DNA of 14,233 nt from Chloroflexota bacterium (lineage in GTDB: Bacteria; Chloroflexota; Dormibacteria; Aeolococcales; Aeolococcaceae): contig DNAU01000228.1 of assembly GCA_003491925.1 (NCBI GenBank), positions 1 through 14,233 on the forward strand, written 5' to 3'. How positions within the stretch are numbered: position 1 is the stretch's first letter; each line of letters opens with the position of its first letter. The translations under genes and the position numbers were made by a program. Below the pieces are notes generated by a model. The model did not search any database. It had not been told where the DNA came from and was given only the letters and a program-made list of their open reading frames with translations. This document shows positions 2,856 to 14,233 of this stretch, piece by piece.

Positions 2856-2884
2856 TTGACTTTATGCAAGGGAAAACGAAGAAT
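2856..2884 (+). promoter_or_regulatory. Candidate sigma-70-type promoter for the sugar locus
   Basis: TTGACT (2856-2861) is followed after 17 bases by AAGAAT (2879-2884), giving five of six and four of six matches to the -35 and -10 consensus at ideal spacing. Initiation near 2891 would give a leader of about 87 nt before the aldolase ATG at 2978. It lies in a local AT-rich patch. Confidence 0.45.
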
Positions 2885-2891
2885 AAACGAA
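2874..2891 (+). promoter_or_regulatory. Candidate DeoR-family operator: two AAACGAA direct repeats 11 bp apart
   Basis: AAACGAA occurs at 2874-2880 and again at 2885-2891, an exact 11-bp period, so both copies face the same side of the helix. A weaker AAACAGG follows at 2893. On the other strand the units read TTCGTTT, resembling the TTTCGTTT-type direct repeats bound by DeoR-family sugar regulators such as AgaR and SrlR. The repeats cover the -10 element and start site, as expected for a repressor. The likely ligand-responsive protein is the DeoR regulator at 6874-7647. This is inference from motif and position. Confidence 0.45.
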
Positions 2892-2964
2892 CAAACAGGC
2901 GTGATGACCCACCCCGGGAGCCTCCTCGGCCCTCGGGCCCTTCCACGCCGTCACCCGGTTCGTT

Positions 2965-2970
2965 GGAGGT
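2965..2970 (+). promoter_or_regulatory. Strong Shine-Dalgarno deciding the aldolase start
   Basis: GGAGGT lies seven bases before the ATG at 2978. The same frame stays open back to an ATG at 2864, but the added 38 residues (K/R/P-rich) have no ribosome-binding site, overlap the promoter and are not part of the aldolase fold. Confidence 0.8.
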
Positions 2971-2977
2971 GCCACGG

Positions 2978-3808
2978 ATGACCATGGGAGCGGAGATCCG
3001 CCTCGGGCGGCTGTTCGACGAGGGCCGCAACGCGGTCGTCGTCGCCGTGGATCACGGTCTGTACAACGGACCGCTGGCCGGCTTGAACGACCTGCCCGTG
3101 ACCCTTCGAGACCTCGGCGCCGCTGACGCGATCCTGATGAGCCCGGGGATGGCGGCTCATGTGGGACACCTCTTTGCGCACCGGGGGGCGCCGGCATTGA
3201 TGATCCGGCTGAACTGGGGGACCCAGTACGCCTCCCAGTGGCAGTACCACGAGAGCCGGAGCGTCCCCGTCCTCACCGCCGCCGAGGCCGTGGCCCTGGG
3301 CGCCGACATCGTCCTGGTGGGGATGTCCATCCACACGGGGTCCGAAGCGGTCGACGCCGAGAACGTGGAGATGGTGGCTCGGGCCGTGAGCCAGAAGCGC
3401 GCCGCCGGCGTCCCCATAGTTGGCGAGGTCTATCCCGCCGATCAGGAGGACCTCCCCGCCGACGAGCGGCACGAACGGATCGCCGTGGGCTGCCGCGTCG
3501 TCGCCGAGCTCGGCGTGGACCTGGTCAAGACCTTCTATACGGGTGAGCGCTTCGGCGAGATTATCGCCGCCACGCCCATCCCCGTCCTCGCGCTCGGATC
3601 TCGCAAGCTTCCCCGCGAGGTCGACGCTCTCAAGCTCGCGGCAGAGGCGATCCACAGCGGAGCTCACGGCGTCGTCTTCGGCCGCAACGTGCTGCAGGCA
3701 CGGGACCCCAAGCGGTTTCTGGCCGCCCTCTGTGCCGTGGTCAAGGAGGCCACACCGCCTGAGGTGGCCGCTGACCGCTGCGGTCTCATCGAGGCCGTGC
3801 TGGCCTGA
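2978..3808 (+). CDS. Class I DhnA/LsrF-type (DeoC/LacD superfamily) sugar-phosphate aldolase
   Basis: This is a 276-residue TIM-barrel Schiff-base aldolase, expected to cleave a phosphorylated ketose into a triose phosphate and an aldehyde, or to transfer such a unit. AVDHGLYNGP (23-32) carries the conserved Asp25-His26 of the DhnA/LsrF family. ADAILMSPGMAAH is the second strand region. VDLVKTFYTG carries the presumed Schiff-base Lys184. GRNVLQARDP (235-244) is the family's phosphate-binding end. Length matches the family (about 260-290). The stop overlaps the kinase ATG by one base (TGATG), so the two are translationally coupled, and the third coupled gene is an isomerase. The family includes fructose-bisphosphate aldolase, LsrF thiolase, aminodideoxyheptulosonate synthase and sulfofructose-phosphate aldolase relatives. 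The neighbouring kinase and isomerase favour a catabolic sugar aldolase; the exact substrate is unknown. Confidence 0.85.
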   Translation: MTMGAEIRLGRLFDEGRNAVVVAVDHGLYNGPLAGLNDLPVTLRDLGAADAILMSPGMAAHVGHLFAHRGAPALMIRLNWGTQYASQWQYHESRSVPVLTAAEAVALGADIVLVGMSIHTGSEAVDAENVEMVARAVSQKRAAGVPIVGEVYPADQEDLPADERHERIAVGCRVVAELGVDLVKTFYTGERFGEIIAATPIPVLALGSRKLPREVDALKLAAEAIHSGAHGVVFGRNVLQARDPKRFLAALCAVVKEATPPEVAADRCGLIEAVLA

Positions 3809-5400
3809 TGGGACTGCTCCTGGGGGTCGACGCGGGCACCACCTCGCTCAAGGTGGGGCTGTACGACGACGCCGGCAACGAGCGGGCGGTGGCGGTGGAG
3901 GAATACGCCCTCCAGACCCCTGAGCCCTCGCGTGCCGAGATGGACCCCCAGCTCTACTGGAGATCCCTGGTCGGCGCCGGGCGCCGCGCCCTCACCAAGG
4001 GCCGCGCGCGGCCCGGGGACGTCGAGGCGCTTGCCGTGTCCAGTCAGGGCGAGACCATCATGCCGGTGTCGGCATCCGGGGTCGCGCTCGGCCCGGCCAT
4101 CGTCTGGCTCGACAACCGGGCGGTGGCCGAGGCCAGCGACCTCGCCGCGCAGCTCGACGCCCACGCTGTCTACGCCGCCACCGGCGTTCCCACCATGGTG
4201 CCCACCTGGCCGGCCTGCAAGCTGCTCTGGTGGAAGCGGCACGATGCCGACCTCTTCCGGAGCGCCGCTCACTTCCTTCTGGTGGAGGAGTTCCTCATCC
4301 AGCGTCTCACCGGACGCTTCGTCTCCGAGGCCGGGGTCCAATCGAGCTCTCTGCTCTATGACATCGCCCGCCACGCCTGGTGGCAGCCGATGTTCGACCT
4401 GCTGGAGATCTCCCCGAGCCGGCTCGGGGACCTCGTCGCCCCCGGAACGGTGGTCGGGTCACTGACCTCGGAGGCCGCCGACGCCCTTGGATTGACCACC
4501 GCCGTACGCGTCGTCGCCGGCGGCATGGACCAGGGTGCGGGAGCCGTCGGGGTGGGCAACCTCGCTCCCGGCATCCTCTCCGAGAGCACCGGCGGAGCTC
4601 TCGCTGTGCAGGCCTCGATCGATCGATCAGACCGGGACGCCAGCGGACGGATTCCCGTCTACGTGCACTCCGCCCCGGGCACCTACCTCTACTGCCCGGT
4701 GTGCCCGACCGGGGGGATGGCCCTGACCTGGTTCCGCGACCGGTTCGGCCAGCCGGAGGTGGCTCGCGAGAGGGCGGAGGGCGTCAGCGCCTACGACCAG
4801 CTCACCGGCATGGCCGCAGGTGTCCCGCCCGGGGCGGACGGGCTCATCATGCTTCCCCACCTCTCCGGCGCCTTCAGCCCCGAGTACGAGCCCGCGGCTC
4901 GTGGGGTGTTCTTCGGCTTCACCCTCGGGCACGGTCGGGAGCACTTCGTCAGGGCGACCCTGGAGGCGGTCGCCTTCACCCTCCGCCGCAACCTCGAGCT
5001 GCTCGAGGGCATCGGTGCCAGCGCCGAGGAGGTTCGCTCGCACGGGGGCGGTGCCCGCAGCGCGCTCTGGAATCAGATCAAGGCCGACGTCTGCTCCCTG
5101 CCGGTGGTGACCCTCCAGGGGACGGAGGCCGCGGTGCGCGGCGACGCCATGCTGGCCGGGGTGGCCTCGGGGAGCTTCAGCGACCTGGACCAGGCCTGTG
5201 CCGCGGCCGTCCGCCCGGAGGCTCGGTACGAGCCCCACCTCGAGACGCACGCCGCCTACGAGGCCACCTACCGGCGGTACGTCGAGCTGTTCGACAGTCT
5301 CCGCTCGCTGTTTCGATGGACCGAGCCGCCGCTCGCCGCACCGGAGGGCCCCGGCCGGCCGGCCCCTCTCAGTCAATGGCCTCGGGAGGATGTGACGTGA
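3808..5400 (+). CDS. FGGY-family carbohydrate kinase
   Basis: This ATP-dependent kinase of 530 residues probably phosphorylates the ketose made by the downstream isomerase, feeding the upstream aldolase. The N-terminal phosphate loop GVDAGTTSLKVGLYD begins at residue 6. A substrate-domain segment has PAIVWLDNRA. The catalytic base is probably Asp241 in GGMDQGAGAVGVGN, and the C-terminal nucleotide motif is SHGGGARSALWNQIKAD (411-427). The two FGGY domains are complete. The last 15-20 residues (PPLAAPEGPGRPAPLSQWP) form a proline-rich tail outside the fold. The ATG shares one base with the aldolase stop, and the end overlaps the isomerase GTG by four bases (GTGA). FGGY members act on xylulose, ribulose, fuculose, rhamnulose, gluconate, erythritol and AI-2. 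Residues visible here do not allow me to choose among these. Confidence 0.9.
   Translation: MGLLLGVDAGTTSLKVGLYDDAGNERAVAVEEYALQTPEPSRAEMDPQLYWRSLVGAGRRALTKGRARPGDVEALAVSSQGETIMPVSASGVALGPAIVWLDNRAVAEASDLAAQLDAHAVYAATGVPTMVPTWPACKLLWWKRHDADLFRSAAHFLLVEEFLIQRLTGRFVSEAGVQSSSLLYDIARHAWWQPMFDLLEISPSRLGDLVAPGTVVGSLTSEAADALGLTTAVRVVAGGMDQGAGAVGVGNLAPGILSESTGGALAVQASIDRSDRDASGRIPVYVHSAPGTYLYCPVCPTGGMALTWFRDRFGQPEVARERAEGVSAYDQLTGMAAGVPPGADGLIMLPHLSGAFSPEYEPAARGVFFGFTLGHGREHFVRATLEAVAFTLRRNLELLEGIGASAEEVRSHGGGARSALWNQIKADVCSLPVVTLQGTEAAVRGDAMLAGVASGSFSDLDQACAAAVRPEARYEPHLETHAAYEATYRRYVELFDSLRSLFRWTEPPLAAPEGPGRPAPLSQWPREDVT
5385..5390 (+). promoter_or_regulatory. Shine-Dalgarno deciding the GTG start of the isomerase
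   Basis: GGAGGA sits six bases before GTG 5397-5399, inside the end of the kinase gene. The isomerase frame is open far upstream through the kinase gene (to about 4380), but that upstream part is a compositional artefact and not protein-like. Confidence 0.75.
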
Positions 5401-6785
5401 CCAGGCAAACGAAGATCGGCGTGCTCACCATGGCGCTGCTCGAAGACGCCTACAACAAGACCGCGCACATGCGCCCGGCGGCGACCGAGACAGCGCGTGG
5501 CGTGGCCAGGGCGCTGGAGCCGTACGGCACGGTGGTGCACCCCGGTCTGGTCGAGGACGAGGACCAGGCGGCGGCGGCGGCCCGCCAGTTCAACGCCGAG
5601 GGCGTCGACATCATCGTCGCGATGGAGCTCGCCTACACCAAGGGGCTGGTCCCCGCCCGCTGCTTCCTCGACACCACCGCTCCGGTGCTGGTCTGGAACA
5701 CCCAGCAGATCGGGCGTCTCCAGGAGGGAGACGGATTCGACGTCATCATGCTCAACTCGGGGATGGCCGGCATGCCCGAGCTGACCGCGGCCCTGATCCG
5801 CACCGGCCGGGAGTTCTCGCTGGTCACCTCGCGGTTCGACGACCCCGCAGGTCGGGAGAAGCTCGCCCGGGTGATCCAGGCTGCGGGAGTGCGCAGCCGG
5901 CTCCGCTCCGCCAAGGTCGGCCTGGTGGGTCACCCCTTCGAGGGGATGACCGATCTCATGTTCGACGCCGTGGCGCTGCGCCAGTCCGTCGGTCCGGCGC
6001 TCTGGCCGGTCGAGCCGGAGGCCGTGGCGGTGCGCTTCGGGGAGATCCCCCAGTCCGAGGTCGACGACCTGGTTGCAGCCGAGAGGGCGCGCTACCACGT
6101 CGAGATGGAGGCGGACCTCTTCGAGCGCTCGGTGCGGCTCGCGCTCGCCCTGGAGTCGGTGGCCCGCGAGCAGAGGCTCGACGCCTTCACCGCCTTCGAT
6201 CAGGTCTGGCTGAGCGATCCCCGGGTCGGGGTCATCCCCTCCTACGGCACCGGCCGCCTCTGCGAGGTCGGCATCCCGGCGGCCCCCGAGGGCGACGTCA
6301 CCACCGCGGTCTCCCAGCTCGTCATGCAGGAGCTCGCCGGCCAGGCCACCACCCTCGAGAACTACGTGATCGACTTCGACAACAACGCCGTGATGTTCTC
6401 CCACGATGGCCACGGCAACCCGGCACTGGGGACGCCCGGAGCGGTCGCGGTCAAGCACTCCATCTACTACAAGGGCGTGCACGGGTACGGAGCGGGCTTC
6501 GAGTTCGTCTACGAGCCGGGACCGATCACCAACCTGGCGATCGTGACCGTGGGCGACAACCGCTGGCGGTTCGTGATCTCGGAGGGGCAGCTCCTCCCCA
6601 TGGAGCCGCGGCCGATCTCGGCACCCCAGGCCCTCTTCCGGCACGACACGCTGGCCGTCGACGAGTGGTGCAACGCGTGGCTCCGCGCCGGGGCTCCGCA
6701 TCACATGGGTGCGGCGCGCGGTCGCTGGACCGCTCAGCTCCTCGAGCTGGCGCAGATGCAGGGGATCGAGGCGGTGATCGTCTGA
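5397..6785 (+). CDS. L-fucose/L-arabinose isomerase family protein (sugar ketol-isomerase)
   Basis: This 462-residue protein probably converts an aldose (or sugar derivative) to its ketose using a divalent metal. The N-terminal half (KIGVLTMALL at 5-14, then VDIIVAMELAYTKGLVPA and VLVWNTQQIG) matches the substrate-domain pattern of the fucose/arabinose isomerase superfamily. KVGLVGHPFEGMTD starts the second domain. The metal/active-site region has Glu298 in PEGDV, Asp326/Asp328 in VIDFDNN and His336/His339 in SHDGHGN. The C-terminus has PHHMGAARG with His435-His436 followed by an LLELAQMQGIEAVIV helix, as in the family. The GTG start is chosen from GGAGGA upstream and gives a clean N-terminus. 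It is coupled to the kinase by a 4-bp overlap. Distance from characterised FucI/AraA prevents naming the sugar; D-arabinose, L-fucose, a branched or a sulfonated sugar are all possible. Confidence 0.8.
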   Translation: MTRQTKIGVLTMALLEDAYNKTAHMRPAATETARGVARALEPYGTVVHPGLVEDEDQAAAAARQFNAEGVDIIVAMELAYTKGLVPARCFLDTTAPVLVWNTQQIGRLQEGDGFDVIMLNSGMAGMPELTAALIRTGREFSLVTSRFDDPAGREKLARVIQAAGVRSRLRSAKVGLVGHPFEGMTDLMFDAVALRQSVGPALWPVEPEAVAVRFGEIPQSEVDDLVAAERARYHVEMEADLFERSVRLALALESVAREQRLDAFTAFDQVWLSDPRVGVIPSYGTGRLCEVGIPAAPEGDVTTAVSQLVMQELAGQATTLENYVIDFDNNAVMFSHDGHGNPALGTPGAVAVKHSIYYKGVHGYGAGFEFVYEPGPITNLAIVTVGDNRWRFVISEGQLLPMEPRPISAPQALFRHDTLAVDEWCNAWLRAGAPHHMGAARGRWTAQLLELAQMQGIEAVIV

Positions 6786-6873
6786 TGACCGAGCTGCCAG
6801 GTTGGTGCCGGTCCCGTCCGCGCCTGCCGACGCCGGGCGGGTGGGTCCGCCGCCGCGGACCGGGTGGAAGGCC

Positions 6874-7647
6874 ATGGCCAGCCTGACCCCGGCTCGCGCG
6901 CGCCGGGACACCATCACCAAGCTTCTCGAGGATGGCGGCAGCGTCAGCGTCTCCGCGCTCACGGCTCAGTTCGGGGTGACGGAGACCTCCATCCGCCACG
7001 ACCTCACGGTGCTCCAGGAGGTGGGCAGGCTGCGTCGCGTCCGCGGGGGCGCGGTCAGTGCGCGAAGGCTCGCCCCGCCACCCGGGGCCATGGCTCGCGC
7101 ACGTGAGAACTCGGTGGAGAAGGCGCGGATCGGCCGCCTGGCCGCGACCCTGGTCCACACCGGTGACGTGGTGCTCTTCGACTCCGGATCCACGGTGCTC
7201 CAGGTGGTGACCAGCATCCCACCGCCGCGACGGATCACCGTGGTCACGCACGCCCTCCAGGTGATGGAGGAGGTGGGCGCCTGGGACTACCCGCACCTCA
7301 TCTGCCTGGGCGGCCTGTACCTGAGAGAGCACCAGTTGTGGGTGGGGCCGCTGACCCTGCTCAACCTCCGCGATCTCACCGGGGACATCGCGTTCCTGGG
7401 CTGCGACGGGTTGACGGTCGAAGGTGGGATGACCACCGCGGACATGCTGGTCGCCGAGGTCGGAGCGGCGCTGGCCGCGCGTGCCCGGCGGGTGGTCGTC
7501 GTCGCCGACGCCAGCAAGCTGGGACGGGCGGGATTCACCCCTTTCGTGACCCTCGACGCCATCAACGTGCTGGTCACCGACGAGCGTGCCGATCCCGGCA
7601 TCGTGGCCCGGATCCGGGAGATGGGGATCGAGGTGCTGCTGGCATGA
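6874..7647 (+). CDS. DeoR-family transcriptional regulator
   Basis: This 257-residue regulator is the likely repressor of the sugar locus, sensing a phosphorylated intermediate. Residues 8-62 form the DeoR winged HTH: RRDTITKLLEDGGSVSVSAL, then FGVTETSIRHDL (family VSxxTIRRDL), ending GRLRRVRGGAV. The DeoRC sugar-phosphate sensor domain follows, with KARIGRLAATLVHTGDVVLF, a DSGST loop, FLGCDGLTVEGGMTT and VVVVADASKLGR, all family signatures. The ATG at 6874 places the HTH seven residues from the N-terminus, as usual, but the ribosome-binding site is weak (GGAAGG very close). In-frame GTG 6841 and TTG 6802 are alternatives that add an atypical proline-rich tail. It begins 88 nt after the isomerase and ends 202 nt before the binding-protein gene. 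Confidence 0.9.
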   Translation: MASLTPARARRDTITKLLEDGGSVSVSALTAQFGVTETSIRHDLTVLQEVGRLRRVRGGAVSARRLAPPPGAMARARENSVEKARIGRLAATLVHTGDVVLFDSGSTVLQVVTSIPPPRRITVVTHALQVMEEVGAWDYPHLICLGGLYLREHQLWVGPLTLLNLRDLTGDIAFLGCDGLTVEGGMTTADMLVAEVGAALAARARRVVVVADASKLGRAGFTPFVTLDAINVLVTDERADPGIVARIREMGIEVLLA

Positions 7648-7849: not shown

Positions 7850-9175
7850 ATGACAGGCAACTCGACACGAGGGCTGATGGGGCGGCTGAGCCGCCTCGGC
7901 GCGGTCGCGGTGGGCACGGCCCTGCTGGCGACGGCGTGCGGCTCGGGCGGCTCGGGTTCGACGGTGACCCTGACGCTCTGGCAGAACTACGGCACCGAGT
8001 CCAATGCCACCGCAACCACGAACTTGATCAACGCCTTCGAAAAGCTGCATCCCGACATCCACATCAACGACGTGGCGCAGCCGGCGGACAACTACTTCGC
8101 CCTGCTTCAGGCTGCCGCCATCTCCAAGACCGGCCCGGACCTCGCGGTCATGTGGACCGGTCTCTTCACCCTCCAGTACGACAGCTATCTACAGAACCTG
8201 AAGTCGTACATCCCGCAGAGCGACCTCTCCGACATGCTGGGGATGCAGTGGGTGGCCCCGGGATTCAACACGGCTAACGGGGCGTATGTCATACCCCTGG
8301 AGGACCAGTTCTACATCGGCTTCTACAACAAGTCGCTGTTCACCAAGGCGGGGATCACCCAGGTCCCGCAGAACTGGACCCAGCTGATGACGGACTGCGC
8401 GGCCTTCAAGGCGATGGGGACCAACTGCCTCTACTACGGGGCCGACACCCAGGCGCTCGGGGCGGAGTTCTACCCTTACTACGACCTCAGCTACCTGATG
8501 ATCGGTGCGCTGGGAGTGTCCCAGTGGGAGGAGCTGTACAACGGCCAGCTCTCCTGGACGGATCCTATCGTCGAGGCTCAGCTGACCAAGTGGGCGGCTC
8601 TCCACGCGGACGGCTACACCAACTCCAACGTGATCAGCTCGGGCGACTCGCTGATCGCGCTCGAGAAGGGTCAGACCGCCATGATCGTGGACGGCAACTG
8701 GGACACCGCCGCCCTCTACCAGTCGATGGGCAGCAACCTGGGAACCTTCGTGCCGCCTTACTCGGACACGTCGATCAATGGCGTGGTCCAGTTCCCGGGC
8801 GACGGGTACTCGATGACCACCTACTCGCAGCACAAGACCCAGGCGGCCGAGTTCCTCCAGTTCCTCACCACCACCCAGGCGGCGACCATCATCGACCAGA
8901 GCGGCCTGATCCCGGACCTGCAGGGGTCGACGTCGTCGAACCCGGTCAACCAGGACATGCTGAACTTCGCCGCCCAGGACGGGATGACGCCCTACCCGAT
9001 GCTCGACAACGTGACCCAGGTCGGGGTGGTGAACGAGGGAAGCAAGGTGCTGCCGCAGCTCCTGGCCGGTCAGATCAGCGTCTCCACGGCCGCCCAGGAC
9101 CTCGAGCAGGCGTGGCAGGCCCTTCCGGCAGGTCAGCGCAGCTCGTCATGGGCCAGTTACACGGCCAGCTCCTGA
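7850..9175 (+). CDS. CUT1-type sugar ABC transporter substrate-binding lipoprotein
   Basis: This 441-residue extracytoplasmic solute-binding protein (family 1, MalE/UgpB-like) captures the sugar for the importer encoded directly downstream. The N-terminus is a lipoprotein signal: positive residues (R7, R12, R15), hydrophobic LGAVAVGTALLATA, and the lipidated Cys30 followed by a flexible GSGGSGS linker. The mature protein starts with VTLTLWQNYGTES and has a family-1 motif FEKLHPDIHINDV. YVIPLEDQFYIGFYNKSLF (about 145-163) is the typical segment where the binding protein contacts sugar and hinge. Many Trp/Tyr residues fit carbohydrate stacking. The ATG follows GGGGAG by six bases. Ligand size cannot be read from the sequence; CUT1 systems usually import di- or oligosaccharides and glycerol-phosphate-like compounds, but monosaccharide members exist. 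Confidence 0.92.
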   Translation: MTGNSTRGLMGRLSRLGAVAVGTALLATACGSGGSGSTVTLTLWQNYGTESNATATTNLINAFEKLHPDIHINDVAQPADNYFALLQAAAISKTGPDLAVMWTGLFTLQYDSYLQNLKSYIPQSDLSDMLGMQWVAPGFNTANGAYVIPLEDQFYIGFYNKSLFTKAGITQVPQNWTQLMTDCAAFKAMGTNCLYYGADTQALGAEFYPYYDLSYLMIGALGVSQWEELYNGQLSWTDPIVEAQLTKWAALHADGYTNSNVISSGDSLIALEKGQTAMIVDGNWDTAALYQSMGSNLGTFVPPYSDTSINGVVQFPGDGYSMTTYSQHKTQAAEFLQFLTTTQAATIIDQSGLIPDLQGSTSSNPVNQDMLNFAAQDGMTPYPMLDNVTQVGVVNEGSKVLPQLLAGQISVSTAAQDLEQAWQALPAGQRSSSWASYTASS

Positions 9176-9220: not shown

Positions 9221-9323
9221 ACCCCCGGGAGCTCGGGACGTGATCGGCGACCGGTGAGGCGGTGGCCATCGCCGGTCGGGCTTGGGTTCGTCCGCCGGTA
9301 ATATGGGAAGCAGAAGAAGCCAG

Positions 9324-10265
9324 ATGGCACAGGCAGAGGTCGAGGCGGTGCGCGTCCGGCCCTCGCTGCGCGAGGGCAGTAAGCGCGGCCGCAGGGCATC
9401 CGGGATCGCACGCCAGCGGGCGCGCGCCGGCATCGTGCTGACCGCGCCGGCCTTCGTCGTGGTCGTGCTCCTGCTGATCATCCCCATCGGTGAGGCCGTC
9501 TACTACAGCATGACCAATTGGGACGGCATCACCGCCCAGTGGGTGGGCCCGCGCACCTACCTCAACCTCTTCGAGACTCCGACCTTCTGGCGGGTCCTCG
9601 AGAACAACGGGCTGCTGCTCCTGGCACTTCCGATCGCCGTCTTCATCCCGCTCGTCATAGCCGGCATGCTGCACGAGCACGTCTGGGGCTGGAAGGTGTT
9701 CCGATCACTCATCTTCCTGCCCACGGCCGTGTCATGGGTGGTGATCGGTATCGTCGCGATGCAGGTGTTCGCGGCCAACGGGACCGTCAACTCCCTGCTC
9801 GGCGCCCTGGGGTTGAAGTCCCTCGAGATCAACTTCCTCGGCTTCGAATACAGCGCTCTGGCGGCGGTGGCGGTCACCTTCATCTGGTCGATGGTCGGCA
9901 CCAACACCATCGTCTTCCTGACCGGGATGTCGACCATCGACCCGGCCATCTACGAGGCCGCACGGCTGGATGGAGCCGGGCGTCTGATGGTCTTCCGCCA
10001 CATCACTCTCCCGCTGCTGAAGCGTTACTTCCAGTTCGGGTTCGTGATCACCACGATCAGCGCCTTCACCGGGCTCTTCAGCCTGATCTTCATCATGACC
10101 GAGGGGGGTCCGGGGTATGGCACCACGACCCTGGAGTTCTTCGTCTATCAGCAGGCGTTCGCCATTGGCGCATTCGGAACCGGGGCCACGGTCGGCATCG
10201 TCCTGCTGGTCATCATCTTCGGGGTGAATCTCCTGCAGATGCGGATTCTGCGTGGTGAGACGTGA
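9324..10265 (+). CDS. Sugar ABC transporter permease (MalF/UgpA type)
   Basis: This inner-membrane subunit, about 313 residues, is one half of the importer channel. A basic N-terminal tail (R-rich, 1-35) precedes TM1 (about 36-60, ending IIPIGEAVYYSMTNWDG). Further hydrophobic segments lie near 96-116, 128-150, 178-200, 236-260 and 288-308, giving six. The cytoplasmic EAA loop that docks to the ATPase is YEAARLDGAGRLMVF (210-224) followed by RHITLPLL. The proline/glycine segment MTEGGPGYGTTTLEFFVYQQ is typical of MalF/UgpA. The start is uncertain: ATG 9324 has AGAAG four bases upstream, ATG 9303 and TTG 9282 lie in frame upstream without better sites. It lies about 150 nt after the lipoprotein gene, behind a hairpin, and its stop is 14 nt before the next gene. 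Confidence 0.9.
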   Translation: MAQAEVEAVRVRPSLREGSKRGRRASGIARQRARAGIVLTAPAFVVVVLLLIIPIGEAVYYSMTNWDGITAQWVGPRTYLNLFETPTFWRVLENNGLLLLALPIAVFIPLVIAGMLHEHVWGWKVFRSLIFLPTAVSWVVIGIVAMQVFAANGTVNSLLGALGLKSLEINFLGFEYSALAAVAVTFIWSMVGTNTIVFLTGMSTIDPAIYEAARLDGAGRLMVFRHITLPLLKRYFQFGFVITTISAFTGLFSLIFIMTEGGPGYGTTTLEFFVYQQAFAIGAFGTGATVGIVLLVIIFGVNLLQMRILRGET

Positions 10266-10278
10266 TGGGAGTGGCGAG

Positions 10279-11184
10279 ATGACCCTCCAGGGCGAAAGCG
10301 CGGCCACGCGCCCGGGGATCGAGCTCGGCGGACGGGCAGGCGCGCGGCGGCGCGGCGGGCCGACCCTGGGGCGGCGGCTCCGGAGAGATCCGGGGGCGGT
10401 GATCATGTTCCTGGTGCTCGTGGTCGTCTGCATCGTCATGCTGTACCCGTTCGCCTTCATGATCATCAACTCGCTGAGAACCGAGACCCAGTACCTCAAC
10501 GGGAGCGGCTTCTCCACCTCGAGCTGGTCCGGTCTCTTCAGCGCCCTGCCGGTGGGCTCGGAGCTTCTCAACTCGACGCTGATCTGCGCGGGCTCGATCG
10601 CGATCATCCTGATCGGCTCGAGCGCGGCCGGATTCGCGTTCGCCAAGCTGCACTACCGGCGCCAGAACGTCGTCTTCCTCGGGATCATCGGCAGCATGAT
10701 GATCCCGGTCCAGTCGATCATCATCCCGGAATACGTCAATCTCAGCAACGTCGGCCTGGTCAACAACTACCTGGCTCCGATCCTGGTCTACTCGGCACTT
10801 GGCATGCCGTTCGCCACGTTCCTGATGACGGTGTTCTTCCGGGGTCTGCCCGACGAGCTGATCGAGGCGGCGTTGTGCGACGGCTTCGGCTACGTGGGTG
10901 TGTTCTGGCGCATCGCGGTCAGGATGGCCGCTCCGGCGCTGGCCACCGTCACCGTGCTGCAGTTCATCCAGATCTGGGACGACCTGCTGGTCGCGCTGCT
11001 CCTGCTCCAGGAGCCGGCCAACCGAACCATCACGGTGGGACTGGGGGTCCTCTCGTCGGGGCGCGCGGTGAGCATTCCCGCCCTGATGGCGGGATCGCTG
11101 ATCAGCGCCCTCCCCGCCATCATCGTCTACCTGATCTTCCAGCGCTACCTCATCTCGGGTCTCACCATGGGGGTCAGTCGCTGA
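10279..11184 (+). CDS. Sugar ABC transporter permease (MalG/UgpE type)
   Basis: This second channel subunit, about 301 residues, pairs with the preceding permease. After a basic N-terminus (1-38), TM1 covers about 40-64 (VIMFLVLVVVCIVMLYPFAF) and is followed by a short periplasmic stretch. Other TM segments lie near 102-122, 131-150, 163-187 and 255-285. The MalG-type landmark PVQSIIIPEYVNLSNVGLVN (143-162) is present. The EAA loop reads IEAALCDGFGYVGVFW (195-210), with RIAVRMAAPAL after it. The end, YLIFQRYLISGLTMGVSR, matches the QRYFVxGLTxGAVKG type C-terminus that contacts the ATPase. ATG 10279 follows GGGAG at seven bases; an upstream in-frame GTG (10252) overlaps the previous gene and is less likely. 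Confidence 0.92.
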   Translation: MTLQGESAATRPGIELGGRAGARRRGGPTLGRRLRRDPGAVIMFLVLVVVCIVMLYPFAFMIINSLRTETQYLNGSGFSTSSWSGLFSALPVGSELLNSTLICAGSIAIILIGSSAAGFAFAKLHYRRQNVVFLGIIGSMMIPVQSIIIPEYVNLSNVGLVNNYLAPILVYSALGMPFATFLMTVFFRGLPDELIEAALCDGFGYVGVFWRIAVRMAAPALATVTVLQFIQIWDDLLVALLLLQEPANRTITVGLGVLSSGRAVSIPALMAGSLISALPAIIVYLIFQRYLISGLTMGVSR

Positions 11185-11274: not shown

Positions 11275-12492
11275 ATGGCGACAGTAGAGCTCGACGAGGT
11301 GACCAAGGTGTACCCCAACGGCGTGGAGGCGGTTCAGAACGTGAGCCTGGAGATCGGCGATGGGGAGCTGATGGTGCTGGTCGGCCCATCGGGCTGCGGC
11401 AAGACGACCGTGCTGCGGATGGTCGCCGGTCTCGAGGAGATCTCGGACGGCGAGGTGCGCATCGGGGGGCGGGTGGTCAACGACGTGTCTCCGAAGGATC
11501 GGGACATCGCCATGGTCTTCCAGAACTACGCGCTCTACCCACACATGACGGTGGCTCAGAACATCGGTTTTGGCCTCAAGATGCGCCGGTTGCCCCGGGC
11601 CGAGGTCGAGCTCAAGGTCCGCAACACCGCCAAGATGCTTGGCCTGAGCCAGTGGTTGGAACGGAAACCGGCACAGCTCTCGGGAGGGCAGCGACAGCGG
11701 GTGGCGATGGGGCGCGCCATCGTTCGCGAGCCCAAGGTGTTCCTCATGGACGAGCCGCTGAGCAACCTGGACGCCAAGTTGCGCGTGCAGATGCGCGCCG
11801 AGGTCTCGCGCATTCAGCGGCGCCTGGGGGTGTCGATGCTGTACGTCACCCATGATCAGACTGAGGCCATGACCATGGGTGACCGCGTCGCGGTGTTGCT
11901 CGGAGGCGTGCTCCAGCAGTGTGCCGCGCCCCAGGAGCTGTACGAGCGACCCATCAACATCTTCGTGGCCGCGTTCATCGGCTCGCCGGCGATGAACCTT
12001 TACGAGGGGGCGCTGACCCCGGAGGGGACGGCCGTCAGCCTGGGTTCCCAGCGACTCGAGCTCTCCGAGGAGGTGCGGAGGGCGCGTCCGGCGCTCGCCG
12101 CCTACCGGGGCAAGGGGGTCGTGGTGGGGATCCGCCCGGAGCACATCTCAGCCGCCGCGCCAGGGGACGCTGCGGCACTGCAGGGTGACGTGGAGCTGCT
12201 CGAGGCCCTGGGGTCGGAGCTGCTGGTGCACTTCAGCCTGGACGCGCCCTTTGCTGAGGTGCTTGGTGCGGCGACCGGCAGCGGCGGCAGCCAGCCCGAG
12301 GGGGACGATTCGGGCTCGACCGCCTCGGCTTGGGGTGTCGCCCGGGTGGACTCCGGGACCCGGATCCGGGTTGGCGAGCGGGCGAGCTTCGCGGTCCGCG
12401 CCGGCTCGATGCACTTCTTTGACCCGCACACGAGCATGGCCATCTGGGATGAGACCCCGGGCTCGGGTGGCGTCCCGATGCCCGCTTCCTGA
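11275..12492 (+). CDS. Sugar ABC transporter ATPase (MsmK/UgpC/MalK type)
   Basis: This 405-residue cytoplasmic ATPase energises the two permeases. The nucleotide domain is complete: Walker A GPSGCGKTT (37-45), Q-loop Gln83 in VFQNYALYPHMT, signature LSGGQRQR (135-142), Walker B VFLMDE (155-160) with PLSNLDA, and H-loop His193 in YVTHDQTEAMT. The C-terminal part (about 235-405) is the regulatory OB/TOBE domain with VVGIRPEHI. Within it, about 325-350 is a Gly/Ser/Asp-rich segment (TGSGGSQPEGDDSGSTASA) that interrupts the usual TOBE sequence and is probably a flexible loop. ATG 11275 follows GGGGAG by five bases; an open TTG upstream at 11236 is not favoured. It begins 90 nt after the permease gene. 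Such ATPases are sometimes shared by several importers, but here it completes a dedicated cassette. Confidence 0.95.
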   Translation: MATVELDEVTKVYPNGVEAVQNVSLEIGDGELMVLVGPSGCGKTTVLRMVAGLEEISDGEVRIGGRVVNDVSPKDRDIAMVFQNYALYPHMTVAQNIGFGLKMRRLPRAEVELKVRNTAKMLGLSQWLERKPAQLSGGQRQRVAMGRAIVREPKVFLMDEPLSNLDAKLRVQMRAEVSRIQRRLGVSMLYVTHDQTEAMTMGDRVAVLLGGVLQQCAAPQELYERPINIFVAAFIGSPAMNLYEGALTPEGTAVSLGSQRLELSEEVRRARPALAAYRGKGVVVGIRPEHISAAAPGDAAALQGDVELLEALGSELLVHFSLDAPFAEVLGAATGSGGSQPEGDDSGSTASAWGVARVDSGTRIRVGERASFAVRAGSMHFFDPHTSMAIWDETPGSGGVPMPAS

Positions 12493-12567: not shown

Positions 12568-13065
12568 ATGTCCGTCTACCACGAGTCCTTCCAGATCCAG
12601 TCAGACAGGCTCCCCACTTTCCACGATGTCACGCCTCAGGCGCAGGAGGCGCTGGGGCGCTCCGGGATCAGAGACGGCATCCTGATGGTCTACTCGCAGC
12701 ACACGACCTGCAGCGTGCTGATCCAGGAAGAGTCCCACGACGTGAACTACTGGGGCACCCCGCTGCTGATGCAGGATCTGGTCAACGTCCTCGAACGTCT
12801 GATCCCGACCTGCCGGACGGAAGGGCAGTACCTCCACCCGGGGCCGAAACACATCGAGGTCGCGGTCGACACCCTGCATGAGCAGGCGGCCTGGGGTTTG
12901 AACACCGATGCCCACCTGAGGTCGGTGATGCTGGGGCGCTCGGAGACGGTGCCGGTCATCGACGGCGCCATGGTCCTCGGCGAGTTCGGCCGATTCTGGT
13001 TCGTCGACTTCGACCAGGTGCGAGCGCGTGAGCGGACGGTCCGCATCCAGATCGTCGGGGAGTAG
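12568..13065 (+). CDS. YjbQ/UPF0047-family protein
   Basis: This 165-residue protein belongs to the YjbQ family, a small beta-rich trimeric fold. Some members show weak secondary thiamine-phosphate synthase activity, but the biological role is unsettled. Conserved segments are MVYSQHTTCSVLIQEE (40-55, with the family's His in a HTT-type turn), LNTDAHLRSVMLG (111-123, the NADAHIKASLLG signature) and VPVIDGAMVLGEFGRFWFVDFD (128-149). It is about 25-30 residues longer than common members because of extra sequence around 60-108 (including HPGPKHIEVAVDT). ATG 12568 is chosen from GAGGAG ten bases upstream; an open ATG at 12499 has no such site. It sits 75 nt after the ATPase gene and only 5 nt before the TPI-like gene, so a role in the same sugar-phosphate pathway is likely. 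That is inference. Confidence 0.85.
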   Translation: MSVYHESFQIQSDRLPTFHDVTPQAQEALGRSGIRDGILMVYSQHTTCSVLIQEESHDVNYWGTPLLMQDLVNVLERLIPTCRTEGQYLHPGPKHIEVAVDTLHEQAAWGLNTDAHLRSVMLGRSETVPVIDGAMVLGEFGRFWFVDFDQVRARERTVRIQIVGE

Positions 13066-13070
13066 TCGTC

Positions 13071-13775
13071 GTGTACCGGGGGCTGGAGATCACGCCACCC
13101 TTCTTCGAGATGGGCCCGAAGGCGTACATGTTCGGCCCTGAGATGGTGCGGATAGCGCGGTGCGCCGACGAGCTGAGCCGGGAGTATGACGTGCAGGTCA
13201 TCATCGACCCCCAGTACGTCGACATACCGGCCATCGCCCAGCAGGTGCAGCGAGCGCTGGTCTTCGCTCCGCACATGGACCCGATCGCCCGTGGACGGGG
13301 ACAGGGTGCGGTGCTTCCCGAGGCAATCAAGGCGGCCGGCGCCTCCGGCGTCGTCCTGAACCACGTCGAGCACCGGCTGTCCCGGGATGAGCTGGTGCGG
13401 ACCATCCGTCGCGCCGACGAGGTGGGACTCGCGACGATGGTCTGCGCGGACGATGTGGAGGGGGCGGTGTCGATCGCCGAGCTGGCGCCGAACATCATCG
13501 TCGTGGAGTCGCCCGAGCTGATCGGGACCGGCAGCGGGGGCGAGCGTGACAGTGCGACGATCGCGGCCACCCACCGCGCCATCTGGCTTGTCAATCCGGA
13601 GATCCGGGTCCTCCACGGGGCGGGCATAGGGTGCGCACAGGACGTCTTCGGCGTCATCGCGGCAGGCGCCCAGGCAACCGGGTCGAGCAGCGGGATCTTC
13701 AAGGCCCAGGACCCGGAGGCCGTGCTGGGGGAGATGATCAGAGCGGTGCGCGAGGCGTGGGACGCAAGACATTGA
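13071..13775 (+). CDS. Archaeal-type triosephosphate isomerase homologue
   Basis: This 234-residue TIM-barrel protein follows the short archaeal TPI pattern closely. HMDPIARGRGQGAVLPEAIK (68-87) corresponds to the HIDP...GxGxxLPEAVK region. VVLNHVEHRL (94-103) carries the catalytic His98 (archaeal LLNHSEHR), VVESPELIGTG (144-154) carries catalytic Glu146 (archaeal EPPELIGTG), and VLHGAGIGCAQDV is the phosphate loop. The N-terminal NxK motif is changed: PKAY keeps Lys17 but has Pro/Gly in place of the Asn, and Ser after the His is Val99. The Lys-His-Glu triad is therefore intact but the substrate pocket altered, suggesting an isomerase for a different small phosphoketose, as in TPI-like L-erythrulose-phosphate isomerases. 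The GTG start follows GGGGAG by eight bases, five bases after yjbQ. Its stop overlaps the probable TTG of the SIS gene. Confidence 0.85.
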   Translation: MYRGLEITPPFFEMGPKAYMFGPEMVRIARCADELSREYDVQVIIDPQYVDIPAIAQQVQRALVFAPHMDPIARGRGQGAVLPEAIKAAGASGVVLNHVEHRLSRDELVRTIRRADEVGLATMVCADDVEGAVSIAELAPNIIVVESPELIGTGSGGERDSATIAATHRAIWLVNPEIRVLHGAGIGCAQDVFGVIAAGAQATGSSSGIFKAQDPEAVLGEMIRAVREAWDARH

Positions 13776-14233
13776 GCGATGTTGCTGACGACCACGAGCC
13801 CCCATGGCGGCTCACTGAGGGGGGGGTGTCCAGAGCCCTTAGCCTCGTCGAGGCGGAGGTGTCCAGAGCCCTCGGCCTCGTGGAGGTGGCGGAGGTGGAG
13901 CAGCTTGGAGCCACCCTGGAGCGTCCCCAGGGGCGGCGCTTCTTCACCGGCCAGGGACGCTCGGGATTCGTGGCGCGGATGGCGGCCATGAGGCTGATGC
14001 AGCTGGGTGGGCGGGCACATGTGGTGGGAGAGGCCACCACGCCGGCGTTCGGCGAGCAGGACGTCCTGGTGGTGATCTCTGCATCGGGGGCGACGCCGAC
14101 GTCGCTGCTTCATGCGCAGCAGGCCCACGCCATTGGTGGAACGGTGTGCTGTCTGACCACCGATCGCACCAGCCCGATAGCCCTCCTCTTCAAGCCCTGC
14201 GTGATCCTCCCGACCGAGGGCTCTGTGCAGTTC
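13772..14233 (+). CDS. SIS-domain isomerase, 6-phospho-3-hexuloisomerase (HxlB/PHI)-like, 3' end outside window
   Basis: The first 154 residues are visible and the frame stays open to the last base. A helical N-terminus (EVSRALGLVEVAEVEQL, 29-45) leads into the SIS domain: RRFFTGQGRSGFVARMAAMR (55-74), LMQLGGRAHVVGEATTPAF (75-93), DVLVVISASGATPT (97-110) and TVCCLTTDRTSPIALL (124-139). These match the PHI order GAGRSGLVARAFAMRLMHLG, VVGETTTPAI, DLLIVISGSGET and TSNPDSPLA. The enzyme would interconvert a phosphorylated 3-hexulose and 2-hexulose, or a related sugar phosphate. The start is uncertain: TTG 13772 overlaps the previous stop (TTGA), while GTG 13859 in the same frame would give the usual PHI N-terminus. 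Between them lie a run of eight G and a 33-bp in-frame tandem repeat. Usual length is about 180-200 residues, so roughly 40 or more are missing. Confidence 0.82.
   Translation, partial: MSDVADDHEPPWRLTEGGVSRALSLVEAEVSRALGLVEVAEVEQLGATLERPQGRRFFTGQGRSGFVARMAAMRLMQLGGRAHVVGEATTPAFGEQDVLVVISASGATPTSLLHAQQAHAIGGTVCCLTTDRTSPIALLFKPCVILPTEGSVQF
13825..13890 (+). repeat. 33-bp in-frame tandem duplication in the SIS gene
   Basis: Two adjacent copies begin GGTGTCCAGAGCCCT at 13825 and 13858 and continue GCCTCGT-GAGG with few differences. The period is 33 bp, or 11 codons, giving VSRALSLVEAE followed by VSRALGLVEVA. It duplicates one turn-length of the N-terminal helix and does not break the frame. 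Confidence 0.85.

Follow-up and report, generated by a model that had tools for sequence, protein, structure and literature searches.

A long-form protein of the YjbQ (UPF0047) family and an archaeal-type homologue of triose-phosphate isomerase (TPI) are close genomic partners inside sugar-catabolic gene clusters with varying transporters, kinases, and isomerases. Their genes lie together near the end of a 14,233-nucleotide stretch of DNA from a Chloroflexota bacterium (contig DNAU01000228.1 of assembly GCA_003491925.1; G000:C155:1-14233 in our numbering), which is called the window throughout and belongs to an assembly of 2.65 Mb that is 71% complete. On the forward strand, the YjbQ gene at 12568-13065 (165 amino acids; PF01894, TIGR00149) is followed after 5 nucleotides by the TPI homologue at 13071-13775 (234 amino acids; above the cut-off of NF003302 and aligned to PDB entry 1hg3). 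The stop of the latter overlaps by 4 nucleotides the start of a gene for an HxlB-type SIS-domain protein at 13772-14233 (154 amino acids, cut by the contig end; PF01380 and the HxlB model), provided that the TTG at 13772 is the start. Upstream of the trio is a single run of same-strand genes from an aldolase through an ABC sugar importer, and the tight spacing of three adjacent genes downstream of such an importer, first pointed out in a sequence-only reading of this DNA, holds up. We put at roughly 55% the probability that long YjbQ and the TPI homologue are phosphosugar isomerase-type enzymes of one route. A partner enzyme shared by long YjbQ across seven phyla, together with operons in which YjbQ has few companions other than a phosphotransferase system (PTS) and isomerases, narrows the chemistry of YjbQ to phosphosugar isomerization. 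The unexplained YjbQ family would thereby gain a likely job in rare-sugar breakdown that a few purified proteins could put to the test.

Pairing of Long YjbQ with the TPI Homologue

A survey of public genomes with long YjbQ as the bait yielded 61 loci. The TPI homologue was recognized in 55 of them, and in 52 of the 61 it lies on the same strand as YjbQ and no more than 300 bp away. Judging by record titles and tree labels, these 52 adjacent loci represent seven phyla (Chloroflexota, Bacillota, Bacteroidota, Spirochaetota, Lentisphaerota, Kiritimatiellota, and Actinomycetota), and the named strains among them include Maribellus, Christensenella, Anaerotruncus, and Mediterraneibacter. When the pairs were recounted by tblastn, 51 remained adjacent (L045, with its YjbQ cut by a contig end, dropped out), and the gaps ranged from 8 to 219 bp with a median of 52. 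The order is TPI then YjbQ in all 51 of these closest pairs, whereas the window has YjbQ then TPI, so the two genes remained side by side while their order was rearranged.

Nine loci depart from this adjacency. A TPI-homologue match at E <= 1e-6 was found in all eight of the exception genomes searched, those in G450 (a brief stretch at the edge of its contig, E 2.6e-7) and G448 being partial. In five of the eight (G446, G447, G448, G449, and G451), a second long YjbQ adjoins the TPI homologue, and in two others the distance between TPI and YjbQ is 3.2 kb and 1 kb. In the ninth exception, L054, it is 7.2 kb.

The reciprocal test covered 400 genomes of the window's phylum, taken to be Chloroflexota, with thresholds of E <= 1e-10 for TPI and E <= 1e-20 for YjbQ. 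The TPI homologue occurs in 10 of these genomes and YjbQ in 11, and 10 genomes, the window's own included, have both; the eleventh YjbQ match is only 40% identical. The pair is adjacent in nine of the ten shared genomes, and in the tenth the TPI gene ends its contig while YjbQ starts 139 bases into another. With kinship ignored, the hypergeometric probability of this co-occurrence is 4e-19. Possible use of the YjbQ gene as interchangeable filler next to unrelated genes, which the sequence-only reading had named as grounds for abandoning its proposal, is ruled out by the adjacency in the survey (and on five Shinella plasmids), by the reciprocal co-occurrence, and by the exception genomes.

The genes around the pair are less constant. 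Outside Chloroflexota, the median identity to the window's protein is 52% for the TPI homologue (45 loci) and 56% for YjbQ (49 loci, a value biased by its role as the bait), and it is 30% for the kinase (32 loci) and 23% for the sugar isomerase (10 loci). The upstream enzymes thus vary while the pair stays, as would be expected of a common downstream node.

Features of the Two Proteins

Family membership of the window's YjbQ is clear, with 92.6 bits against PF01894 (cut-off 27) and 91.3 bits against TIGR00149 (67.75), and it has the family's fold. The family is widespread, with UPF0047 matches in 10 of 14 well-known bacterial and archaeal control genomes, and nine distinct sequences have been solved. 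At 165 residues, the window's protein does not belong to the compact form, whose solved chains have 129-151 residues. It carries two insertions relative to solved short members, at about residues 56-63 and 89-111, and a tree separates 72 long rows from 5 short rows with a support of 100/100. Short YjbQ (PDB 1vmj, 2p6h, 1vph, and others) resembles the long form in fold and core residues, with His45, Glu54, Asp70, His90, Asn112, His116, Asp149, and Arg154 unchanged across 47 long and 3 short rows. What sets the long form apart is the two conserved insertions and the neighboring TPI homologue, which was found in none of 26 short-form loci with flanks that reach at most 1.5 kb.

Two published observations hint at an encounter of YjbQ with small phosphates. 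An excess of Escherichia coli yjbQ rescues a pdxB mutant, in which a C4-phosphate dehydrogenase is lost, through an unsolved route that feeds vitamin B6 synthesis at a point before SerC and PdxJ (PMC7954711). A thiamin phosphate synthase activity has also been reported for the family and described as low and secondary (a title cited in PMC4731195), and yjbQ has been counted as a thiamine condensation gene (PMC5613172). The relevant passages of these three papers do not deal with long-form clusters. The NCBI name "secondary thiamine-phosphate synthase" stems from a hypoth_equivalog model. In our view, the likeliest role of long YjbQ is that of a sugar-phosphate isomerase or epimerase, whose substrate and reaction we infer, and not that of a thiamine enzyme.

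In eight loci (L044, L045, L047, L052, L053, L056, L059, and L072), a single TPI homologue has at least two copies of long YjbQ in its vicinity. Five of these loci include one copy from group A and one from a minor subgroup of clade B, two have both copies in clade B, and for L045 the second copy falls outside the tree. Copies from different tree branches are present in seven of these eight loci, a sign that one route may include two related YjbQ reactions.

The window's TPI homologue scores 56.3 bits against PF00121 (cut-off 20.1) and 179.3 bits against the archaeal-type model NF003302 (132), and it falls short of the general TPI equivalog TIGR00419 (79.1 versus 130.6 bits). Lys17, His98, and Glu146, the catalytic residues of TPI, are kept in 58 of 58 rows. 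At position 15, that of the Asn in the N-x-K motif of TPI, the window and 97% of the 58 rows have Gly, and the Asn is retained in TPI relatives from Enterococcus and Lacticaseibacillus. The protein shares its length, family, and catalytic Lys/His/Glu with archaeal-type TPI (PDB 1hg3, 2h6r, 1w0m) and differs from it as a second genome copy with Gly for the motif Asn and, usually, YjbQ beside it. The host has a separate, ordinary TPI (270 bits, G000:C198). A database TPI that is 89% identical to the window's comes from a Candidatus Dormibacteria bacterium. Database sources that give the two proteins a name at all use triose-phosphate isomerase and secondary thiamine-phosphate synthase, both of which are probably wrong.

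Third Partners

The sequence-only reading had presented the three genes as one candidate module with a phosphohexuloisomerase-like SIS protein as its third member, and only part of this proposal survives. As a conserved unit, the exact trio of YjbQ, TPI, and HxlB did not hold up, having been found only in the window, yet a third partner of the SIS type is frequent: of the 55 loci with a TPI homologue, 34 have a KpsF/GutQ-like SIS gene (one representative scanned) no more than 10 kb away, and 31 have it within 2.5 kb. HxlB itself recurs with YjbQ in three PTS operons of Lactobacillales, described below. The same reading knew of no described pathway that needs all three proteins. In titles and abstract starts of PubMed Central, with subscription journals largely outside, we likewise found no published account of a YjbQ-TPI module.

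Other neighbors were counted in the same 55 loci, although some contigs end too soon to reveal every gene nearby. An FGGY-family kinase lies within 10 kb of the pair in 41 loci. DhnA-type aldolases, whose co-occurrence with the three families was to be checked by a neighborhood survey, are near the pair in only 9 loci and never together with the KpsF-like SIS gene (34 and 9 loci apart; Fisher 4.6e-5), which eliminates an aldolase of this type as a constant partner. The split between SIS and aldolase largely follows the YjbQ tree and may be one historical event. Other aldolases (HpcH/HpaI-like and class II), which fall outside the DhnA-type count, were seen by eye in some SIS clusters.

The HxlB-like protein of the window scores 118.3 bits against the HxlB model TIGR03127, below the cut-off of 160, and is truncated by the contig end; locus L002 stops at 14233 although 1,500 bases past YjbQ were expected, which makes this position the apparent end of the contig. 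Solved relatives of the protein are 1vim, 1m3s, 9lj9, 1viv, and 1jeo. The gene could be a local accident that begins another operon past the contig end, outside the YjbQ-TPI pathway, an explanation that we regard as unlikely and yet worth keeping in mind. Of 13 related genomes, 12 have the pair and the other has a fragment of YjbQ at the end of a contig; HxlB is located at the pair in the window's own genome alone. G401 has a weaker HxlB match on a different contig, and the same-genus cluster L032 has no HxlB, while L033 is cut right after YjbQ and is uninformative. The reversed gene order of the window, set against 51 of 51 loci, also fits an accident. Opposing it are the 4-nucleotide overlap with the TPI gene, if 13772 is the start, the recurrence of YjbQ with HxlB in operons of Enterococcus faecium and Lacticaseibacillus paracasei, and the other SIS isomerases near the pair in 34 of 55 loci. 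A KpsF-like SIS gene was found in none of the 13 related genomes in a search that had no positive control.

The ribulose monophosphate pathway, in which HxlA works with HxlB, has the HxlB-type SIS isomerase in common with the window. It differs in that no HxlA was found in the window's genome (0 matches in the 71% complete assembly) and HxlB is placed with YjbQ instead. The lack of an HxlA match makes this pathway less likely and is a further point against an HxlB that is unconnected with the pair.

Plasmid Operons

Plasmids carry the most informative clusters. The TPI homologue and YjbQ are adjacent in five Shinella plasmid records, and in the one cluster read a short-chain dehydrogenase/reductase (SDR), a TIM-barrel epimerase-like protein, TPI, YjbQ, and an FGGY kinase stand in a row; a gene of the dihydroxyacetone kinase family lies close by. 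In E. faecium pQL50 and L. paracasei pLPCN-1, a PTS and a class II aldolase accompany TPI and YjbQ. The two E. faecium plasmids read for the other operon type have PTS-YjbQ-RPE-HxlB (L123:4935-10773 and L126:1935-7773; RPE, ribulose-phosphate 3-epimerase) without an aldolase, and one L. paracasei plasmid has PTS-YjbQ-SIS-RPE-HxlB. Each of the PTS operons of this type read from Lactobacillales, three in total, thus combines YjbQ with HxlB, and both plasmid HxlB proteins scanned are above the cut-off (208 and 175 versus 160). Three IIC proteins scanned are of the galactitol type, though below the cut-off of that model. No kinase or dehydrogenase is listed in the plasmid PTS operons read, so YjbQ should meet a ready phosphosugar there; the rest of the enzymes are isomerases and epimerases, with a class II aldolase in some. 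Many of the listed E. faecium plasmid records with the YjbQ of the YjbQ-RPE-HxlB type come from human samples.

Proposed Route and Its Alternatives

In the route that we favor, YjbQ and the TPI homologue would both act on a phosphorylated sugar. A kinase or PTS would supply a rare ketose phosphorylated at a terminal carbon, probably C1, and the TPI homologue would move the carbonyl from the 2-keto to the 3-keto position, as EryH may do with tetrulose phosphate. YjbQ could then carry out the next isomerization or epimerization on the same chain. An SIS-type isomerase (HxlB in the window, KpsF/GutQ-like elsewhere) or an aldolase would finish the route, which might end at fructose 6-phosphate, pentose phosphates, or trioses. 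The textbook reaction of HxlB converts a 3-keto-6-phosphate to a 2-keto-6-phosphate, and the same step is proposed for the window. A stricter version, which we treat as speculative and rather unlikely, is a relay in which the carbonyl walks along a hexulose 1-phosphate in exactly three 1,2-shifts, the product being a hexulose 6-phosphate. The TPI homologue would catalyze C2 to C3, YjbQ C3 to C4, and HxlB or another SIS enzyme C4 to C5, with no phosphatase and no second kinase. YjbQ would be the missing middle isomerase, and RPE-type epimerases would correct the stereochemistry in some operons.

The closest described analogy is erythritol catabolism in Brucella, for which Barbier and co-workers reportedly set out, in 2014, the relay EryA-EryC-EryH-EryI. 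EryA is an FGGY-type kinase, EryI is an RpiB protein, and EryH, formerly TpiA2, is a TPI homologue; at the level of bonds, for EryH, its step can be read as a shift from a 2-keto-1-phosphate to the 3-keto form. The likeness lies in a kinase that feeds a series of sugar-phosphate isomerases, a TPI homologue among them, and an FGGY kinase and a TPI homologue are both present in the window. The window departs from it in that YjbQ and SIS/HxlB replace the EryC-type (PF01261) protein and in having an aldose isomerase and an aldolase but no polyol dehydrogenase. Neither a dehydrogenase family such as that of EryB nor PF01261, the xylose-isomerase-like family of EryC, was found in the family scan of ten window proteins. 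The roles of the erythritol-route enzymes, EryH included, are given in PMC11508834. On the best reading of this comparison, the long-YjbQ relay would feed rare phosphoketoses into central metabolism, work like the EryC-EryH-EryI relay, and be built from different proteins.

Several points weigh against the proposed route. A DHAP-type aldolase (DHAP, dihydroxyacetone phosphate) could cleave a ketose 1-phosphate directly, and no relay would be needed. A fold search with YjbQ returned only YjbQ-family entries as close folds, so the fold gives no functional hint. In the reciprocal test, nine of the ten shared genomes come from one family, the window's own was counted, and at most seven candidates per genome were scored for TPI. 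In a second phylum (395 genomes around G453, the L074 genome, a Bacteroidia metagenome-assembled genome by its title), both genes were found only in the central genome, so this set says nothing about reciprocity. Among plasmid records, with chromosomes outside the count, the TPI homologue is on only 12 of 160 with long YjbQ, two haloarchaeal TPI proteins having been left out. In 146 of the 160, the YjbQ is one protein at at least 99% identity, from E. faecium in all those listed, with the neighbors read in two. The TPI homologue is missing from the E. faecium YjbQ-RPE-HxlB operons read and from one L. paracasei operon. On most of these plasmids long YjbQ is therefore found apart from the TPI homologue, and the pairing is not strict; how strict it is, however, leaves unchanged the odds that YjbQ meets phosphosugars.

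The alternative that keeps closest to Brucella is a tetrulose route, a non-homologous counterpart of the erythritol relay, which we hold as tentative and, on balance, unlikely. A kinase would make tetrulose phosphate, the TPI homologue would stand for EryH, YjbQ would take the place of EryC (racemase/epimerase) or EryI (erythrulose 4-phosphate to erythrose 4-phosphate), and the SIS protein would be the last isomerase. The set of roles matches, with an FGGY kinase, a TPI homologue, and two further isomerases, and the Shinella cluster with its SDR, epimerase-like protein, TPI, YjbQ, FGGY kinase, and nearby dihydroxyacetone-kinase-family gene would suit such a route. So would L057 and L058, which have an SDR (scanned for L057) and a zinc-dependent alcohol dehydrogenase-like gene (by eye), and the relief of the pdxB mutant by excess yjbQ (PMC7954711). 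The ten scanned window proteins, however, include no dehydrogenase, the AraA-like aldose isomerase and the aldolase of the window would be superfluous, and the HxlB and RPE partners suggest C5-C6 chains.

It is improbable that the pair merely handles the products of an aldolase. The aldolase would cleave a ketose 1-phosphate, the TPI homologue, as a dedicated copy, would convert DHAP to glyceraldehyde 3-phosphate, and YjbQ would take the aldehyde half. This arrangement is compatible with the intact TPI triad, with the 9 of 55 loci in which a DhnA-type aldolase neighbors the pair, and with the class II aldolase in the plasmid operons of aldolase, TPI, and YjbQ. It fits poorly with the 34 of 55 loci that have an SIS gene without a DhnA-type aldolase (other aldolase types being outside the count), with the ordinary TPI already in the host, and with PTS-YjbQ-RPE-HxlB operons that, as read, have neither aldolase nor TPI. 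That YjbQ is no pathway enzyme at all but a thiamine-phosphate synthase or repair protein co-transcribed with sugar genes is very improbable: its NCBI family name, the reported synthase activity (PMC4731195), and its listing as a condensation gene (PMC5613172) speak for it, but the reported activities are called low and secondary (PMC4731195), the long form keeps one TPI homologue over seven phyla and phosphosugar isomerases in PTS operons, and no thiamine gene was recognized by eye, with no systematic scan, in 15 loci printed in full.

Other Genes of the Window and Its Relatives

The same-strand run upstream of the trio starts with a class I aldolase of the DeoC/LacD family (DhnA type) at 2864-3808 (PF01791; nearest solved relatives MJ0400 and LsrF), a probable pathway enzyme. 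It continues with a XylB-like FGGY sugar kinase at 3808-5400 (PF00370/PF02782; 321.6 bits against TIGR01312, below the cut-off of 380), an AraA-like aldose-ketose isomerase at 5397-6785 (PF11762; start approximate), and a DeoR-family regulator at 6802-7647 (PF00455 and PF08220 above cut-off). The importer consists of a solute-binding protein at 7850-9175 (PF01547), a first permease at 9282-10265 (PF00528), a second permease at 10252-11184, assigned by similarity only (59% identity to a stretch of L038), and an ATPase of the UgpC/MalK type at 11275-12492 (NF008653, 466.5 bits, above the cut-off of 432). All are on the forward strand. An autoinducer-2 (Lsr) system was considered and dropped, since the kinase and aldolase score far under the cut-offs of the LsrK and LsrF models. 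Comparison with relatives of the isomerase, kinase, and aldolase did not settle the substrate, and a search of article listings on apiose and apulose pathways yielded nothing of use.

Within the HxlB-like gene, the 5′ part contains an in-frame tandem duplication of 33 bases (13826-13891), the two copies of which are not identical. Elsewhere, the Bacteroidales locus L075 (1687-10501) and similar loci hold a nine-gene set made up of a major facilitator superfamily transporter, an HpcH/HpaI-like aldolase (by eye), a NagA-like protein, a distant NagB-like protein, a Ceramidase_alk-like protein, an FGGY kinase, SIS, TPI, and YjbQ. Six Chloroflexota clusters encode a protein of about 500 amino acids (protein cluster C41; L036:6224-7780 and L042:1481-2974 among them), and the one scanned has no Pfam match. 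A fused protein of the E1 dehydrogenase/transketolase type appears in clusters with SIS, TPI, and YjbQ (L081:3730-5982, L083:10256-12742, and L057:52-1794; L081 scanned, the others by eye), two of which also have an RPE-like gene.

The AraA-like isomerase adjoins the TPI homologue in all nine other genomes of the reciprocal test that have the latter (L099-L107). In these loci and in L032 and L033, the isomerase is 71-89% identical to that of the window, compared with 45-65% for the neighboring TPI homologue.

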